Shown here in pieces: positions 19,698 through 32,614 of a stretch of DNA of 64,000 nucleotides. Below the pieces are notes generated by a model that worked only from the letters and a program-made list of their open reading frames with translations, was not told the DNA's origin and searched no databases. Numbering within the stretch: position 1 is the stretch's first letter; every line of letters begins with the position of its first letter. Source of the DNA: Halosolutus gelatinilyticus (GTDB lineage Archaea; Halobacteriota; Halobacteria; Halobacteriales; Natrialbaceae); the NCBI RefSeq assembly GCF_023028105.1, contig NZ_CP095491.1, forward strand, positions 2,418,001 to 2,482,000. Reading direction: 5' to 3'. The position numbers and the translations under genes are program-made.

Positions 19698-19718
19698 AAA
19701 CGAAGATTCTGCGTCGTA

Positions 19719-20132
19719 TTATGGGCGTGGCATCGATTCGATCTCTCGAATCCGCGCCGTCTTCTCGACCGCTTGATACTGGCGCTTCCACGCCTCTTCA
19801 GGAAACAGTCCGTTGCGATCGAACAGCTCGCGCGCGTCTTCGGTGAGTTCGTAGAACTTGTAAGGGTAGTCCCGAAGCCGGTTCCCCGTCTCGAACTCGC
19901 GTTCGCGGACGACGCCGACGCTCTCCAACGTTCGAAGGTGTCGACGGATGGCGTCGTCGCTGAGGGGTGGATTCATGTAGTCCAGTTCCTCGACGCTGGG
20001 CATCCCCTTCGGGTGACCGACGACGTCCGCGAGAATGTCGGCTCGCTTCTTGTCGGTCGCCTTCTGGAGCGCCCGCCACGCGTCGAATCCCGCGGTTCCC
20101 TCCCGGCCCGGATCGGCCGTCTCGGGTATCAT
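19719..20132 (-). CDS. Winged-helix transcriptional regulator
   Basis: 137 aa. A winged-helix DNA-binding domain covers most of the protein: KKRADILADVVGHPKGMPSVEELDYM, then SDDAIRRHLRTLESVGVVREREFE and a wing ending YPYKFYELTEDARELFD. The pattern is that of haloarchaeal ArsR- or PadR-like regulators without a ligand domain. It is transcribed away from the gene at 20260, and a CCATAAACA stretch near 20156-20164 may be the promoter region. Target unknown. Confidence 0.75.
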   Translation of the reverse strand: MIPETADPGREGTAGFDAWRALQKATDKKRADILADVVGHPKGMPSVEELDYMNPPLSDDAIRRHLRTLESVGVVREREFETGNRLRDYPYKFYELTEDARELFDRNGLFPEEAWKRQYQAVEKTARIREIESMPRP

Positions 20133-20166
20133 GTGTCACACTTGGAGAGCCACCACCATAAACACT

Positions 20167-20180
20167 CGCATCTAAATGCG
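20167..20180. promoter_or_regulatory. Palindrome between divergent regulator and orphan gene
   Basis: CGCAT-CTAA-ATGCG, a 5-bp inverted repeat, lies 35-48 bases upstream of the minus-strand regulator ATG, in the position of promoter elements. A second palindrome, CGGTCA-CT-TGACCG at 20242-20255, lies just before the plus-strand gene. Either could be an autoregulatory site. Evidence is sequence symmetry only. Confidence 0.25.
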
Positions 20181-20259
20181 GGTGATTCTGCAACTAATCC
20201 CACAACTAATTTGACTGAGAACGAACGGTTGATAATGCTACCGGTCACTTGACCGAACG

Positions 20260-20880
20260 ATGAACACGGACGGCGGTCCCGGGCCCGAGGGGCGGGACCA
20301 GTTCGAGGACCGCGAGGAGGCCGAGGCGCCGGGAGCAGAGGAGATCTTGACCGAGATCGAGTCCGTCAACCTCTCTCCGAGCGAACACCAGCGGGTCAAG
20401 GATCTCGTCAACGGCGAAGAGATGAACCGAATCAAGGGCTACGATCGGCGGTATCTGGTTGCGGGAGCGGGCGGCGAGACCGGCGCTGCGACGCGTCGGA
20501 AAACGGTCTGTGACCTGCTCGACGAGCGCACCGATCCGCCGTCGGTCGCCTTTCGACTGGAGGACTTCGGCCTCACGCCCGAGGATATCAGGCTCTGGCA
20601 CCGCGTTTTCGACATCTGCTGCGGCCGAGCGACGCACATCGTCGCCGTGCTCGAAGACTTCGACGGCGGCTACGTCTGGGAGCTGGGGCTGTTATTCGCC
20701 CCGTCGTACCGCGACCGCGTGTGGGTGTTGAAACGGCGATACCCGGACGAAGAGACCGAACGCGAGCGGTACGACAACGGAATGGCGGCATCGCACGTCA
20801 AACTCCTCCTGACCGGCGATCGCTGCCACGAGTGGATCGACGCGGACGAGCTGCGAGACGCCGTCAACGAGGTTCCTTGA
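20260..20880 (+). CDS. Uncharacterised haloarchaeal protein (206 aa)
   Basis: An acidic Glu-rich N-terminus of about 30 residues is followed by a globular domain. Features that stand out are RYLVAGAGGETGAATRRKTVCDLL, VAFRLEDFGLTPEDIRLWHRVFDICCGRATHIVAVLEDFDGGYVWELGLLFAP and RVWVLKRRYPDEETERERYDNGMAASHVKLL. The layout (nucleotide-like GAGG, VWELGLL with a buried Glu) recalls nucleoside 2-deoxyribosyltransferase/TIR-like folds, where such a Glu is catalytic, but this is only an impression. Starts right after the palindrome at 20242-20255. Confidence 0.6.
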   Translation: MNTDGGPGPEGRDQFEDREEAEAPGAEEILTEIESVNLSPSEHQRVKDLVNGEEMNRIKGYDRRYLVAGAGGETGAATRRKTVCDLLDERTDPPSVAFRLEDFGLTPEDIRLWHRVFDICCGRATHIVAVLEDFDGGYVWELGLLFAPSYRDRVWVLKRRYPDEETERERYDNGMAASHVKLLLTGDRCHEWIDADELRDAVNEVP

Positions 20881-20908
20881 CGAGACGCGCGATCGTCGGC
20901 TTCTCGAA

Positions 20909-21424: not shown

Positions 21425-22501
21425 ATGACAGAGGCCTACGTTGCGCTGGAGGGTGGCCGCGTACTCGAGGGACGTGGTCGCGCTCCGGGCACGGCTCGCG
21501 GCGAACTGGTTTTCACAACGGCGTACACCGGCTACGAGGAGAGCCTGACCGATCCCTCCTACGAGGAGCAGGTTCTGACCTTCTCGTACCCGTTGATCGG
21601 GAACTACGGCGTCCGCGAGGAGCGATTCGAGTCCGACCGCGTCCACCCGCGGGCGGTGCTCGCACGCGAACTCACCGAAGACGTCGCCGAGTGGCTCGAA
21701 AGCGAAGACGTGCCGGCGATCGATCACCTCGACACGCGCGAGGTCGTCACCGACATCCGGGACGGCGGCGCTATGAAGTGCGGCATCGCCGTCGGCGAGG
21801 ACGTCACCGAGGAGGACGCGCTCGCCGAACTCGAGCAGTGCAAGGGCATGAGCGAGCACACCGAGATCGGCGCCCAGGTCAGCGTCGACGAACCCGCCGT
21901 CCACGGCGCCGACAACGACGGCGAGACGGTCGCGCTCGTTGACTGCGGCGCGAAGGGCTCGATCGTCGACTCGTTGCTCGCTCGCGACGCGACCGTCCAC
22001 GTCCTACCCCACGACGCGACCGCGGCCGACGTCGAGGCCGTCGACCCCGACATCCTCTTCATCTCCAACGGTCCCGGCGACCCCGCGAACTACGAGGCGG
22101 CGATCGCCCTCGTCGAGGCGTTCGTCGAGGACACGCCCGTCGCCGGCATCTGTCTCGGCCAGCAGATCGTCGCCGAGGCGCTGGGCGGCACCACCGAGAA
22201 GATGACCTTCGGCCACCGCGGCGTCAACCAGCCCGTTCTCGACCTCGAATCGGGCCAGGTCGTCATGACCACGCAGAACCACGGCTACACCGTCGCCGAT
22301 CCCGGCGACCACCTCGAAGTCACCCAGGTCAACGTCAACGACGACACGCCGGAGGGGATCGACGGCATCGAGTACGACGTCATCACCCGCCAGTACCACC
22401 CCGAGGCCAACCCCGGCCCCGAGGACACCCTCGACTTCTTCGACGACGTCCTCGCGATGGCCGACTCCCGAGCGACGACGGCCGTTCCCGCCGACGACTA
22501 A
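21425..22501 (+). CDS. carA: Carbamoyl-phosphate synthase small subunit CarA
   Basis: 358 aa. The small-subunit N-terminal domain (YVALEGGRVLEGRG, VFTTAYTGYEESLTDPSY) is followed by a class I glutamine amidotransferase domain with GICLGQQ (Cys243), the MTFGHRGVNQP loop and QYHPEANPGP carrying the His-Glu pair. It hydrolyses glutamine to feed CarB in carbamoyl-phosphate synthesis for pyrimidines and arginine. carB is not adjacent. Likely controlled by the neighbouring Lrp protein. A T-rich stretch after the stop (22502-22525) may end transcription. Confidence 0.92.
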   Translation: MTEAYVALEGGRVLEGRGRAPGTARGELVFTTAYTGYEESLTDPSYEEQVLTFSYPLIGNYGVREERFESDRVHPRAVLARELTEDVAEWLESEDVPAIDHLDTREVVTDIRDGGAMKCGIAVGEDVTEEDALAELEQCKGMSEHTEIGAQVSVDEPAVHGADNDGETVALVDCGAKGSIVDSLLARDATVHVLPHDATAADVEAVDPDILFISNGPGDPANYEAAIALVEAFVEDTPVAGICLGQQIVAEALGGTTEKMTFGHRGVNQPVLDLESGQVVMTTQNHGYTVADPGDHLEVTQVNVNDDTPEGIDGIEYDVITRQYHPEANPGPEDTLDFFDDVLAMADSRATTAVPADD

Positions 22502-26236: not shown

Positions 26237-27925
26237 TTAGTCGTGACGGAAAGACCGCTGCCCCGTAAACGCCATCGCGATGCCGTGTTCGTTCGCGGCC
26301 GCGATCACGTCGTCGTCGTTGACCGAGCCACCGGGCTGGACGACCGCCTCGATACCCGCCTTCGCGGCCTCCTCGATGCCGTCGGGGAACGGGAAGAAGG
26401 CGTCGGAGGCCATGACGGCGCCGTCGGCGTCCTTGCCCTCGGCGTGCTCGTCGGCTTTCATCGCCGCGAGTCGGACCGCGTCCACGCGGGACACCTGTCC
26501 CATGCCGATGCCGACCGTTTCGGTGCCCGTCGCGAAGAGAATGCCGTTCGACTTGACGTGCTTGAGCGTCCGCCACGCGAACACCATCGACTCGAGTTCT
26601 TCGCCGGTGGGTTCGCGCTCCGTGACGACCTCGAGGTCGTCGACGTCGATCGACTGCAGGTCGCGCTCCTGGACGAGTCGGCCGCCGACGATCGGCTTCT
26701 CGGTGAAGCGATCGGTTCGCTCTCCCAGTTCGCCCACGTCGAGCACGCGCAGATTCTTCTTCTCGCGGAGGACGTCGAGGGCGTCGTCGGTGTAACCGGG
26801 GGCGACGACGACCTCTTTGAACGAGTCGACGATCAGTTCCGCGGTCGCGGCGTCGCACTCCCGGTTGACGGCGACGATCCCGCCGAACGCGCTCATCGGA
26901 TCGGTCGAAAGCGCCTTCTCGTAGGCCTCGGCGATCGAGTCCGCCGTCGCACAGCCCGCGGGGTTGGTGTGCTTGATGACCGCCGCGGCGGGCTCGTCGA
27001 ACTCCGTGATCAGGTTCAGCGCGCCGTCGGCGTCGTTGTAGTTGTTGTACGACAGCGCCTTCGCGCCCTCGTTCAACTGGTCGGCGTGGACGACGCTGGC
27101 CTCGTCGCAGGTGTAGTCGGCGTAGACCGCGGCGTCCTGGTGGGGGTTCTCCCCGTAGCGGAGGGTGTCGATCCGATCGCTCGAGACGAGTCGGCGGGCC
27201 GGAAGGCCGCCTCGCGGCTTCGCCGCTCGACCATCCGAGGCGCGTGGCGCCTCGCTGTCGTCGTGGTCGTCATCCTCGGTACTCGCGACGTCCGCGTCGA
27301 CGGTCACCTCGCCCGCCTCGCGATCGACGCCGACGGCGCCCTCGGCGAACCACTTTACCGCTCGTGGATACGCGCGGAACTCGCCCTCGTAGAGGACGCG
27401 CTCTTTGAGCGCCTCCGCGTCGTCACCCTCGTAGACCGGGATCGGTTCCTGGGTGACGATCGGGCCGACGTCGACTTCCGACTCGACGACCTCGCCCTCC
27501 TCGTCGGTCGCGTCGGTGACGACGTGGACCGTACAGCCCGTGACCGAGACGCCCGCCGCGAGGGCGTCGCCCCAGGCGTCCATGCCGGGGAACGACGGCA
27601 GCAGCGACGGGTGGACGTTCAGCGTCGTCGGCTGGACGTCGAGGAACGCGTCCGAGAGGATGCGCATGTAGCCGTCCAGACAGACCAGGTCGTACGCGTA
27701 GTCATCGAGCGCCGCGTTGACGGCCTCCTCGTGCTCGCGGCGGCTCATGTCCTCCCCCAGCGGGACGACCTCGGTGGGAATACCTCGCTCGGCGGCGGCC
27801 TCCAGCACCGGCGCGTCCCCGCTGTTCGTCAGCACGACGGCGAGTTCCGCCCCGCCCGGCGCTCGATCGGCGATGTTCAACAGGTTGCGCCCTCGGTTGC
27901 CGGCCATCCCGGCGATTCGCGTCAT
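26237..27925 (-). CDS. purH: PurN-PurH fusion: GAR formyltransferase plus AICAR formyltransferase
   Basis: 562 aa from the ATG at 27925 (MTRIAGMAGNRGRN). Residues 1 to about 207 are a PurN-type GAR transformylase with NVHPSLLPSFPGMDAW and the final VKWFAEGAV. A Asp/Ala/Arg-rich linker (about 208-246) leads to an AICAR transformylase domain (RIDTLRYGENPHQDAAVY, VIKHTNPAGCA, DPMSAFGGIVAVNRE, QPGGSVNDDDVIAAANEHG). The PurH N-terminal IMP cyclohydrolase domain is absent; archaea often use PurO for that step. The two steps are steps 3 and 9 of purine synthesis, both using 10-formyl-THF. Divergent from purB. Confidence 0.9.
   Translation of the reverse strand: MTRIAGMAGNRGRNLLNIADRAPGGAELAVVLTNSGDAPVLEAAAERGIPTEVVPLGEDMSRREHEEAVNAALDDYAYDLVCLDGYMRILSDAFLDVQPTTLNVHPSLLPSFPGMDAWGDALAAGVSVTGCTVHVVTDATDEEGEVVESEVDVGPIVTQEPIPVYEGDDAEALKERVLYEGEFRAYPRAVKWFAEGAVGVDREAGEVTVDADVASTEDDDHDDSEAPRASDGRAAKPRGGLPARRLVSSDRIDTLRYGENPHQDAAVYADYTCDEASVVHADQLNEGAKALSYNNYNDADGALNLITEFDEPAAAVIKHTNPAGCATADSIAEAYEKALSTDPMSAFGGIVAVNRECDAATAELIVDSFKEVVVAPGYTDDALDVLREKKNLRVLDVGELGERTDRFTEKPIVGGRLVQERDLQSIDVDDLEVVTEREPTGEELESMVFAWRTLKHVKSNGILFATGTETVGIGMGQVSRVDAVRLAAMKADEHAEGKDADGAVMASDAFFPFPDGIEEAAKAGIEAVVQPGGSVNDDDVIAAANEHGIAMAFTGQRSFRHD
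26249..26279. repeat. Direct repeat copy 2 (inside the purN-purH gene)
   Basis: Partner of 26047-26077, lying in the last codons of the purN-purH fusion. The non-coding copy is probably the derived one, left by a local duplication or an insertion event. Confidence 0.8.
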
Positions 27926-27979
27926 GCGCGGATAGCCGCCCGCAAAGGGGAAAGTGGTTGCGGTCTCGACCGCCGATAT

Positions 27980-27995
27980 ATACACGTACGTGTAT
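27980..27995. promoter_or_regulatory. Candidate purine operator at purN-purH
   Basis: ATACACGTACGTGTAT is a perfect 16-bp palindrome. It lies 55-70 bases upstream of the purN-purH ATG, and on the minus strand it runs directly into TATATAT, so it overlaps the probable BRE/TATA region. It matches the purS site (6105-6120) at 14 of 16 positions. It sits about 100 bases upstream of purB (28094), so it could serve both divergent genes. Confidence 0.55.
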
Positions 27996-28093
27996 CAATT
28001 TGGCGATATTCTCGACCACGACCGTAGAAATATGCACGCTCGTGGCTCGGTCTTTCGATAACCCTTTTGCGCCCCGCTGGAAAGAGTCGCACA

Positions 28094-29479
28094 ATGACCG
28101 AAACTGACGCCCTGTACGCCGTCTCGCCGCTAGACGGCCGCTACGCCGGCCGGACCGCGCCGCTGTCGCCGTACGCGAGCGAGGCTGCACTCATGCGCGC
28201 CCGCGTCCGCGTCGAAGTCGAGTACCTGATCGCCCTCGCGGATCTCGACGCGACGCCGCTTGCGATCGATATCGACGAACGCGAAGCCTTGCGCGGGTTG
28301 TACAAGCACTTCGCCGAGGAGGATGCCCGGCTGATAAAGAAACTGGAGACGGAGGGTCACGCCGGCTTCGACGCGACGAACCACGATGTCAAGGCCGTCG
28401 AGTACTTCGTCCGCCACCGGCTTTCCGAGGACAGTGACGCCTCGGCGTGGATCCACTTCGGACTGACCAGCGAGGACGTGAACAACCTCGCCCACCGGCT
28501 GCTCGTCCGCGACGCCGTAGACGAGGTACTCCTCCCGAAACTGTACGAGGTGCGGAAGTCCCTCGCCGACATGGCCCGCGACCACCGCGATCTCCCGATG
28601 CTCGCGCGAACGCACGGCCAACCCGCCACGCCGACGACGTTCGGCAAGGAGATGGCCGTCTACGCCGCGCGCCTCGGTCGCGCGACCGGACGCATTCGGC
28701 GGGCGACGGACGGTCTCCGCGGCAAACTCGGCGGTGCCTCCGGGACCTACGCCGCCCACGTCGCGGCCTACCCGGACGTCGACTGGCGGGCCTTCGCCGA
28801 GGACTTCGTCACCGGATTGGGCCTCGCGTTCGAGCCGCTCACGACGCAGGTCAACCCCTGCGACGACCTCGCGGCCCTGTTCGACGCGTTCCGCGGAGCC
28901 AACGACGTCCTGCTCGACCTCGACCTCGACGTGTGGCTCTACGTCTCCGATCGCTACCTCGGCCAGGAGGCCGTCGAGGGCGAAACGGGCTCGTCGACGA
29001 TGCCCCACAAGGTCAACCCGATCGACTTCGAGAACAGCGAGGGGAACCTCTCGAAGGCCAACTCCGATCTGACCTTCCTCGCCGACTACGTCACGACCTC
29101 GCGGCTCCAGCGCGACCTCTCGGATTCGACCGTCAAGCGCAACATCGGCGCGGCGTTCGCCCACTGCTTGATCGGCTACGGGAAGACCGCCACCGGCCTC
29201 GAGAAGGTCGTCCCGACCGAGGCGGTCATGCGCGAGGAACTCGAAAACACGCCCGAGATCATCGGCGAAGCCGTCCAGACTATCCTCCGACGCGAGGGCC
29301 AAGAAGACGCCTACGAGCGCGTCAAGGCCGTCACCCGCGGCCGGGAGGTTACGATCGAGGACTTTCGATCGATGTTCGACGAACTCGACGTCGACGAGGA
29401 CGTCCGCGAGGAACTGCACGCGCTCACGCCGACCGGATATACCGGCGTCGCGAGCGAGCTGGTCGACGATCTCACGTAA
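28094..29479 (+). CDS. purB: Adenylosuccinate lyase PurB
   Basis: 461 aa from the ATG at 28094. It cleaves SAICAR to AICAR and adenylosuccinate to AMP with release of fumarate. Fumarase/aspartase superfamily signatures are visible: ARTHGQPATPTTFGKEM, the flexible catalytic loop GSSTMPHKVNPIDFENSEGN, and DLSDSTVKRNIG. Length is typical. An in-frame ATG at 28067 lies further upstream. Divergent from the purN-purH fusion, sharing a 168-base promoter region. Confidence 0.93.
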   Translation: MTETDALYAVSPLDGRYAGRTAPLSPYASEAALMRARVRVEVEYLIALADLDATPLAIDIDEREALRGLYKHFAEEDARLIKKLETEGHAGFDATNHDVKAVEYFVRHRLSEDSDASAWIHFGLTSEDVNNLAHRLLVRDAVDEVLLPKLYEVRKSLADMARDHRDLPMLARTHGQPATPTTFGKEMAVYAARLGRATGRIRRATDGLRGKLGGASGTYAAHVAAYPDVDWRAFAEDFVTGLGLAFEPLTTQVNPCDDLAALFDAFRGANDVLLDLDLDVWLYVSDRYLGQEAVEGETGSSTMPHKVNPIDFENSEGNLSKANSDLTFLADYVTTSRLQRDLSDSTVKRNIGAAFAHCLIGYGKTATGLEKVVPTEAVMREELENTPEIIGEAVQTILRREGQEDAYERVKAVTRGREVTIEDFRSMFDELDVDEDVREELHALTPTGYTGVASELVDDLT

Positions 29480-31336: not shown

Positions 31337-32614
31337 ATGACGGTCCCGCGACTCGTCCACGTCGCCGACCTCGAGACGATCTACGACGACCCGGAACGGG
31401 TTGGCCGATTGGCCGGCGCGGTGCGCGCGCGGCGCGACGATCGGACGCTCGTCGTCGGCGCCGGCGACACGACGGCGCTGGGTGCGCTCGCGTTCGTCAG
31501 CGAGGAGGGCCGCGAACTCGCCCGGCCGCTGTACGAGACGATCGATCCCGACGCCGACGTCCTCGGGAACCACGAGTTCGACTACGGCGCGGATCGGGCC
31601 GCCGCGTGGGTGCGGACGACGCCGGGACGCCACCTCCTCGCGAACGTCGAGGGACTTCCGGACGGCGCGACGACGCCGAGTGCGGTTGTCGAGGTCGCTG
31701 ACGCGCGAATCGGCCTCGTCGGCGTCACCGATCCCAGAACCGCCGAGATATCCGGGATCGACCTCGACGTCGAATTCACCGATCCGGTGACGGCCGTTCG
31801 CGCGGCGAGCGATCGGCTTCGGTCCCGCGGCTGCGAGCGGGTCGTCGTCCTTTCGCACTGCGGGCCGCTCGATTCGACGATCGCTGCGGAGACCAATGCG
31901 GACATCGTCCTCGGCGGCCACGACCACGAGCGCGTCCGTGAACGGGTCGACGGCACGCTCGTCGCGCGCACCGAGGGCGGACAGGCGGGTGCGTTCCAGG
32001 TCGTCCGCCTGACCGATCCGCCCGCGGTCGAGGTGTGTGCGATCGACGACGAACCCCGCCACGAACGGATCGAATCGGCCTACCGCGAGCGCTACGACGC
32101 CACCGGACTCGCCGACGTCGTGACGACGCTGCCGGAGCCGATCGATCGCGCGACGACGGCGCGGACGGTCGCTCGCGCGTACCGGGAGCGTGGAACTGCC
32201 GCCGTCGGTCTCGTGGCTCGAGGGTCCGTCCGCGACGGGCTCCCCGGGGACGTCACGCGCGGAGACGTCATCGGCGTCGTTCCGTTCGGTTCCATGCTAC
32301 ACGTCCACCGCGTCGACGGTCGGACGATGGCGGCGATCGTCGATCGCGGCACGGGGCTGGACCACGAGACGGCGGGGGAGATCGTGGCCGACGGCCCGTC
32401 GCGATCGACCGACGGCGGCGCGCTCGTCGAGGGCGAGCCGATCGATCCGGACGGCTCCTACCGCGTCGGCTGTATGAGCTACCTGACGGCGGTCGACGCG
32501 ATCCCCGAACTCGATTCCGACACGCTCGTCGAGGATCGCGGGCCGCAACACGAGCACGTGCTGGCGTATCTGGAGGGTGAGGGATCGATCGCGGAGCGCT
32601 CAACCCGGCGGTAG
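31337..32614 (+). CDS. 5'-nucleotidase/metallophosphatase family protein
   Basis: 425 aa. An N-terminal metallophosphoesterase domain shows HVADLET, VVGAGDTT, the GNHEFDYG motif, VVLSHCG and GGHDHE. A C-terminal 5_nucleotid_C-type domain carries VARGSVRDGLPGDVTRGDVIGVVPFG and PDGSYRVGCMSYL. The combination is the UshA/NadN arrangement. No signal peptide is seen, so it may be cytoplasmic, in contrast to bacterial UshA. It likely hydrolyses nucleotides or sugar-nucleotides. Confidence 0.85.
   Translation: MTVPRLVHVADLETIYDDPERVGRLAGAVRARRDDRTLVVGAGDTTALGALAFVSEEGRELARPLYETIDPDADVLGNHEFDYGADRAAAWVRTTPGRHLLANVEGLPDGATTPSAVVEVADARIGLVGVTDPRTAEISGIDLDVEFTDPVTAVRAASDRLRSRGCERVVVLSHCGPLDSTIAAETNADIVLGGHDHERVRERVDGTLVARTEGGQAGAFQVVRLTDPPAVEVCAIDDEPRHERIESAYRERYDATGLADVVTTLPEPIDRATTARTVARAYRERGTAAVGLVARGSVRDGLPGDVTRGDVIGVVPFGSMLHVHRVDGRTMAAIVDRGTGLDHETAGEIVADGPSRSTDGGALVEGEPIDPDGSYRVGCMSYLTAVDAIPELDSDTLVEDRGPQHEHVLAYLEGEGSIAERSTRR

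Follow-up and report, generated by a model that had tools for sequence, protein, structure and literature searches.

The closest described systems to the gene pair analysed here are the nucleoside 2-deoxyribosyltransferases (NDTs) of PF05014 with the hydrolases DNPH1/Rcl and MilB, the effector of Retron-Eco1 (Ec86), TIR and TIR-like NADases, and ArsR/HTH_20 regulators. For human DNPH1, a passage of PMC10603095 gives E104 as the nucleophile and D80 as the residue that protonates the leaving base. The legend of a retron survey names NDT and winged-helix parts (PMC12548924), a passage of PMC12405507 describes the Retron-Eco1 effector as defending by NAD+ hydrolysis, and part of PMC13174449 offers DUF4062 as a TIR-like comparison for the broad fold and the conserved Glu. 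In this report, we focused on a stretch of 64,000 nucleotides from a haloarchaeal chromosome (the window; G000 contig C1, 2418001-2482000), in which a 206-residue protein with a predicted NDT/DNPH1/TIR fold is encoded beside a divergent winged-helix regulator. The best reading of this pair, to which we give a probability of roughly 0.6, is that a dedicated ArsR-like regulator controls a nucleotide N-glycosidase; its catalysis, its substrate, the direction of control and any role in defence are what we infer.

With the PF05014 NDTs, DNPH1/Rcl and MilB, the protein shares the predicted fold, a Y-L-x-x-G on strand 1 and a D-x-G-x-x-x-E-x-G in which the Glu is the nucleophile. Unlike them, it belongs to a family that lies below Pfam detection, has extra N-terminal helices, carries E132 and a K158-R159-x-Y161, and is tied to a regulator gene. 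At what we take to be the position of the phosphate-binding serine of DNPH1, the serine is replaced in the NDT-fold family. The likeness to the Retron-Eco1 effector lies in its NDT-like domain (by VIA, in the second model discussed below), but here a separate, divergent gene encodes the winged helix, and no reverse transcriptase recurs beside the family at 41 loci, as would be expected of a type II retron. Similarly, the broad fold and conserved Glu are those of TIR-SPARTA, TIR-STING and DUF4062, whereas no sensor domain is fused to the NDT-fold protein. The regulator resembles ArsR/HTH_20 proteins by its HTH_20 match (below cut-off in the window copy, above it in the relative L112) and by the ArsR family name given by NCBI, and differs from them by direct-repeat-like operators and a conserved C-terminal tail ending in PRP, with no evidence of metal binding here. 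Finally, two adjacent and conserved partner genes are reminiscent of type II toxin-antitoxin systems, but these share a co-directional operon and the present pairs are nearly all divergent. Judged by the Pfam cut-off, the protein falls outside PF05014, and the unit is neither a retron nor a classical toxin-antitoxin operon. Its fold and chemistry belong to a known kind; none of the libraries searched covers the family, the rule by which it pairs or where it occurs, and our literature search found nothing on a two-gene module of an NDT-fold protein and a winged helix.

Features of the two-gene module (positions in the window unless stated otherwise)
Feature	Position	Strand	Basis
NDT-fold protein (predicted), 206 aa	20260..20880	+	ORF, family matches, AlphaFold2 model, VIA match to DNPH1
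Helical N-terminal part, ~26-59; NDT/DNPH1/TIR-like domain, ~60-206	in 206-aa protein		AlphaFold2 model
Signature E132-x4-G137-x3-E141-x-G143 (EDFDGGYVWELG)	20653..20688	+	73-row alignment; PF05014 register
E132 codon, second invariant acid	20653-20655	+	Glu in 72/73 rows, one gap
E141 codon, predicted catalytic nucleophile	20680-20682	+	aligned with Glu of PF05014 WEMG
Divergent winged-helix regulator, 137 aa, ArsR/HTH_20-like	19719..20132	-	pairing, HTH_20, NCBI names
Predicted operator: 12-bp direct repeat, present twice (CTGCAACTAATC CCACAACTAAT)	20188..20210	+	spacing, self-match
Conserved CATAAACACT block, possible TATA box	20157..20166	-	enriched words; promoter role from position
TTGATAAT, possible TATA box	20229..20236	+	position only
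Inserted two-gene module	19698..20904	.	between ends of PHP-type and lrp-type genes; comparison with G016/G088

The NDT-fold gene belongs to a widespread haloarchaeal family. Its open reading frame starts with ATG, and relatives occur in 86 of 125 genomes of the same taxonomic family, nearly all of them as open frames and most full-length matches at ~30-82% identity, which argues for a genuine gene rather than a chance frame. A profile built from 31 members extends the NDT-fold family to 250 of 391 Halobacteria genomes (about two thirds), where it forms several diverged subfamilies, and the window's own genome holds three copies, the other two at ~30% identity. The initial annotation had called the gene an orphan, which these relatives contradict; the order of motifs it had described—GAGG (residues 69-72), then VAVLEDFDGGYVWELGLLFAP, then NGMAASHV—is found in the ORF product at its exact coordinates. 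In a sample of 392 genomes from the phylum, 49 match the family profile, 47 of them from the order to which the window belongs. The family is also present on 11 plasmid records, every one haloarchaeal, with zero matches among 50,697 phage records and no relative confirmed when IMG/VR viral contigs were scanned with two short conserved patterns. Scans of the protein and its relatives with Pfam, NCBIfam, PHROGs and PADLOC gave no convincing model: among the 31 members, none matched the Pfam TIR or DUF4062 models and none reached the curated cut-off of PF05014, which no protein of a long clade reached either. A FomD match (E 0.011) was taken as chance or generic similarity, and the best hit of the family profile in the PDB by sequence was an unrelated protein (E 0.2). 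Two annotated relatives bear the NCBI names 'aminopeptidase' and 'hypothetical protein'; the former, given to the family member L157 5944-6543, looks like a misannotation.

The possible deoxyribosyltransferase-like fold put forward in the initial annotation is what structure comparison now predicts in two clades. The AlphaFold2 model of the window protein built with alignment A1 (mean pLDDT 81.6, pTM 0.75) is confident over much of the chain from about residue 40 and low over the first 30 residues. VIA-align (VIA), which re-ranks candidates proposed by Foldseek alone, placed human DNPH1 first among solved structures (8rps_C; Z 13.2, rmsd 2.7, 125 aligned, 15% identity); MilB (4jel, Z 12.1) came next, and NDTs and TIR domains (8p2m_A, Z 11.9) after it. 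For a 266-residue relative that belongs to a remote clade, shares 23% identity with the window protein and was modelled from a 21-row alignment (pLDDT 83.2, pTM 0.76), DNPH1 again came top (8rpt_A; Z 11.4, rmsd 2.6, 126 aligned), followed by TIR-STING, NDTs, SPARTA TIRs and the Retron-Eco1 effector (8qbl_E, Z 9.3; 7xjg_J, Z 8.2). The two models are not wholly independent because their alignments share some rows. Foldseek itself returned nothing below E 0.001 against the PDB for the window model (best 1.3e-3, a flavodiiron protein) and a best E of 1.1e-2 for the second model, with flavodoxin-like folds mixed in among its matches. We predict an NDT/DNPH1/TIR fold for the 206-residue protein, its NDT core being present in the predicted models.

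A sequence link to PF05014 points the same way. Outside the haloarchaea, the family profile has two matches only, both marginal (G422, E 0.0026; G440, E 0.0035), at a level where about one chance match is expected in the 392 genomes searched. Both proteins are PF05014 NDTs (66.5 and 62.9 bits vs a cut-off of 28.8), solved NDTs are found by sequence from one of them (6evs, E 4.5e-13), and the family alignment with them extends from strand 1 as far as the catalytic motif and sets Glu141 on the Glu of GTIWEMG. Profile comparison by hhalign with haloarchaeal PF05014 proteins was not significant (probability 0.6% vs six proteins, 0.15% vs four), and the short stretch aligned with the six proteins also sets Glu141 on the Glu of E-x-G. 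No PF05014 protein was found in the window's own genome (G000). DNPH1-like PF05014 genes separate from the NDT-fold family were seen in other haloarchaea (L142 1489-1914, L143 1399-1815, L145 1396-1815 and L146 1390-1809), and frames of ~200-276 residues in L149-L156, which by position are not NDT-fold family loci, have sub-threshold PF05014 matches over model positions ~58-104 only.

Conservation was counted in 73 of 125 domain rows, covering all clades once duplicates and pieces shorter than 100 residues were set aside. The initial annotation had named two outcomes that would refute it, a predicted structure unlike NDT/TIR and the absence of a conserved Glu among homologues, and neither was obtained. 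It had pointed to a buried Glu in VWELG, and this residue, Glu141, is invariant: both Glu141 and Glu132 are Glu in 72 of 73 distinct rows, with a gap in the other, i.e., in 72/72 rows with a residue. Gly69 and Gly137 are kept in 72 of 73 rows each, Arg79 and Arg159 in 71 each, and Trp192 in all 73. D80 of DNPH1 has no invariant counterpart in these rows; the nearest candidate is position 118, which is Asp in 40/73 and Glu in 7/73 rows and whose register with D80 is not established.

Pairing with the regulator is near-obligate, a link far stronger than the adjacency first noted. In an even sample of 61 genomes of the same taxonomic family, 89 of 93 NDT-fold matches have a regulator within 1 kb, 86 of them divergent and 3 in the same direction; the remaining four—two fragments (267 and 252 bp) and two matches less than 200 bases from a contig end—do not count as exceptions. 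Across 41 distinct loci (the comparison has 42 rows, one locus having been entered twice), a regulator relative adjoins the NDT-fold gene in 40, and the next commonest neighbour is found in 5. An intact effector without regulator was seen once, at the exceptional locus L050, and in 0 of the 89 testable cases of the 61-genome sample, and 24 of 113 regulators have no NDT-fold neighbour. Fourteen of the latter loci were inspected; L118 lies beside an effector remnant, and another of the 24 (G097:C8) is at a contig end. The distances between regulators parallel those between NDT-fold proteins (r 0.928 for 39 pairs, matched in 0/2000 permutations; r 0.786 in the closest clade, again 0/2000), 39 of the 41 pairs having been compared because L040 repeats L004 and the regulator start in L060 is unclear. 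Such co-variation is expected if the unit is inherited together, which shared ancestry alone would also give. Of the two partners, it is the effector that has diverged more in 652 of 741 pair comparisons. As for the regulator itself, HTH_20 scores 19.7 bits in the window protein and 34.6 in L112 (cut-off 27), relatives carry the NCBI product name 'ArsR family transcriptional regulator', and the domain scan of the window protein revealed no obvious ligand-binding or sensor domain. A match to Csa3 (E 0.00017) was taken as chance or generic winged-helix similarity.

In the control region, the palindromes that the initial annotation had regarded as shared are present in the window (CGCATCTAAATGCG, 20167-20180; CGGTCACTTGACCG, 20242-20255), but both are missing from the 13 further intergenic regions of their clade that were compared, and the idea was therefore dropped. 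What recurs instead is a spacing. Repeated words peak at 12 bp (10 pairs, vs at most 4 at any other spacing from 6 to 30), and self-match at lag 12 reaches z 4.6 in clade A and z 6.0 in clade B, the latter also showing lag 24 (z 5.5). In a third group, self-similarity peaks at lag 15 (z 5.0), and the long clade has no clear peak. Since |z| values of 4-5 also turn up at other lags when the sets are this small (in clade A, 4.1 at lag 29 and -5.1 at lag 8), the repeats were judged on words and spacing together. The sets used for enriched words and for self-match leave out L046, nearly the same as L045. On this sequence evidence the operator seems to consist of clade-specific tandem direct repeats, because lag 12 is found in two clades and lag 15 in the third group. 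The window's repeat pattern occurs once in the 4.76-Mb genome, with no further site within 3 mismatches, vs 4 and 3 sites for the reversed-pattern control in the same genome. Enriched intergenic words are CCACAA/CACAACT and AAACACT/CATAAAC, the CATAAACACT block; this block reads TTTATG on the regulator strand, ~25 bp before the regulator ATG. On the other side, TTGATAAT lies ~25-30 bp before the ATG of the NDT-fold gene, a position from which a leaderless transcript is possible. A subfamily (L069, L070, L071, L073 and L074) that occupies a stable chromosomal neighbourhood across five genomes has AGTAAATTACCC-type repeats ~15 bp apart in its promoter region.

The two genes come and go as a module. 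In G016, from the same genus, 28 bp separate the aligned PHP-type and lrp-type flanks vs ~1.25 kb in the window; the module is also absent from this site in G088, from another genus, and present in G015. With respect to G016 and G088 it is a clean insertion, no DNA having been gained beyond both genes. Loss can be confined to one partner: G008 has both genes at one locus, whereas in its congener G007 the regulator persists (89% DNA identity) and the NDT-fold gene has been lost with no detectable remnant at the locus. Lrp, carA, kinase and Nudix neighbours were considered as partners and set aside, carA and the close lrp being found at this place in congeneric genomes only. The surroundings of the window copy include genes that look by eye carA-like (21425-22501), purine-biosynthesis-like (26237-29479) and 5'-nucleotidase-like (31337-32614), none of which is a conserved neighbour of the family.

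How might such a pair work? In the reading that we favour, the regulator (19719-20132) would bind the direct-repeat operator specific to its clade, within the promoter region that the two genes share, and would thereby control both its own gene and the NDT-fold gene. By analogy with DNPH1, Glu141 would attack the anomeric carbon of a nucleotide sugar with the help of another acid (Glu132 or, in proteins that have it, Asp118), and the base would be released. Arg159, which follows strand 5 and is nearly invariant, may bind a phosphate, in which case a nucleotide (dNMP/NMP or NAD+) would fit better than a nucleoside. An NDT/TIR-type active site tied to a seemingly single-target regulator makes substrate, trigger and purpose testable with two small genes. 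As to purpose, a growth-stopping effector and nucleotide-pool housekeeping are about equally likely, and each is put forward tentatively. If NAD+ or nucleotides are depleted, a transcription-guarded branch would be added to archaeal NDT/TIR immunity; if the nucleotide pool is cleaned, the pair would extend the DNPH1-like enzymes by a new, regulated branch. A broader proposal seems to us rather doubtful, namely that these are haloarchaea-wide switches for immunity or stress, each with a nucleotide-cleaving effector of NDT/TIR fold (in that case probably an NADase or a nucleotide N-glycosidase) that is transcription-guarded by a regulator with its own tandem-repeat operator. If true, it would describe an archaeal counterpart of retron and TIR effectors that works without RNA, Argonaute or second messenger.

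For a defence or toxin module, NAD+ or another essential nucleotide would be depleted once the regulator lets go, on virus infection or stress, and growth would stop, with a transcription factor as guard instead of a retron. A patchy, multi-copy and partly plasmid-borne distribution speaks for this, as do the gain and loss of the module as a unit, the contrast between solitary regulators and the single intact effector without one, the loss of the effector only in G007, the faster divergence of the effector, and the presence among the fold matches of a retron effector that cleaves NAD+. However, stand-alone regulators are expected in any regulator family, no PADLOC model matches the NDT-fold family, phage records and viral contigs gave no confirmed member, and the chromosomal neighbourhood of one subfamily is stable. 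Nor is there a recurrent defence neighbour, only the regulator exceeding 5 of 41 loci; one clear restriction-modification gene was found among 10 neighbours scanned with PADLOC, which is not a rate because these were hand-picked. The stable subfamily suits housekeeping, in which a DNPH1/MilB-like hydrolase would clear damaged or modified nucleotides, with its substrate or product acting on the regulator to induce it. The top fold matches, DNPH1 and MilB, are hydrolases of modified NMPs, and the window's genome has no PF05014 protein. Yet canonical DNPH1-like genes, distinct from this family, are present in other haloarchaea, the regulator has no obvious domain with which to bind an inducer, and several diverse copies per genome together with patchiness are not readily explained in this way.

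That very lack of a sensor domain would make sense if the NDT fold itself did the sensing of a nucleotide, associating with the regulator once its ligand is bound, the pair being a two-protein transcription switch with no enzyme. SLOG/TIR relatives that merely bind nucleotides are known, and near-obligate pairing, a single genomic operator and co-divergence of the two proteins would all fit. We consider this unlikely: two strictly conserved acids, one at the NDT nucleophile position, exceed what ligand binding needs, and with no other target such a pair would regulate itself alone. Least probable is a coincidental fold match of a generic Rossmann-like kind, in a protein that has no relation to NDT/TIR. 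Foldseek E values above 0.001, flavodoxins among the matches and the non-significant hhalign comparison would fit a coincidence, but VIA puts NDT, DNPH1, MilB and TIR structures first for two clades ~23% identical, and the separate sequence match to PF05014 proteins has the motif Glu in register.

Several variants of the two partners were also observed. The proteins of the long clade (L123, L124, L125, L127, L131 and L133) have 248-279 residues and keep E-x4-G-x3-E-x-G; compared with the window protein, PR replaces KR and an insert of ~60 residues precedes the last part. Two close regulators that have no NDT-fold partner, in L108 and L109, lie beside an aldehyde-dehydrogenase-like gene, and the one in L109 also lies near a methylglyoxal-synthase-like gene (both named by eye). 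The regulator relative in L112 (2752-3861, minus strand) has 370 residues, with a second, sub-threshold winged-helix-like stretch at 193-245, and similarly long regulator frames are found beside NDT-fold genes in G040:C16 and G009:C12.
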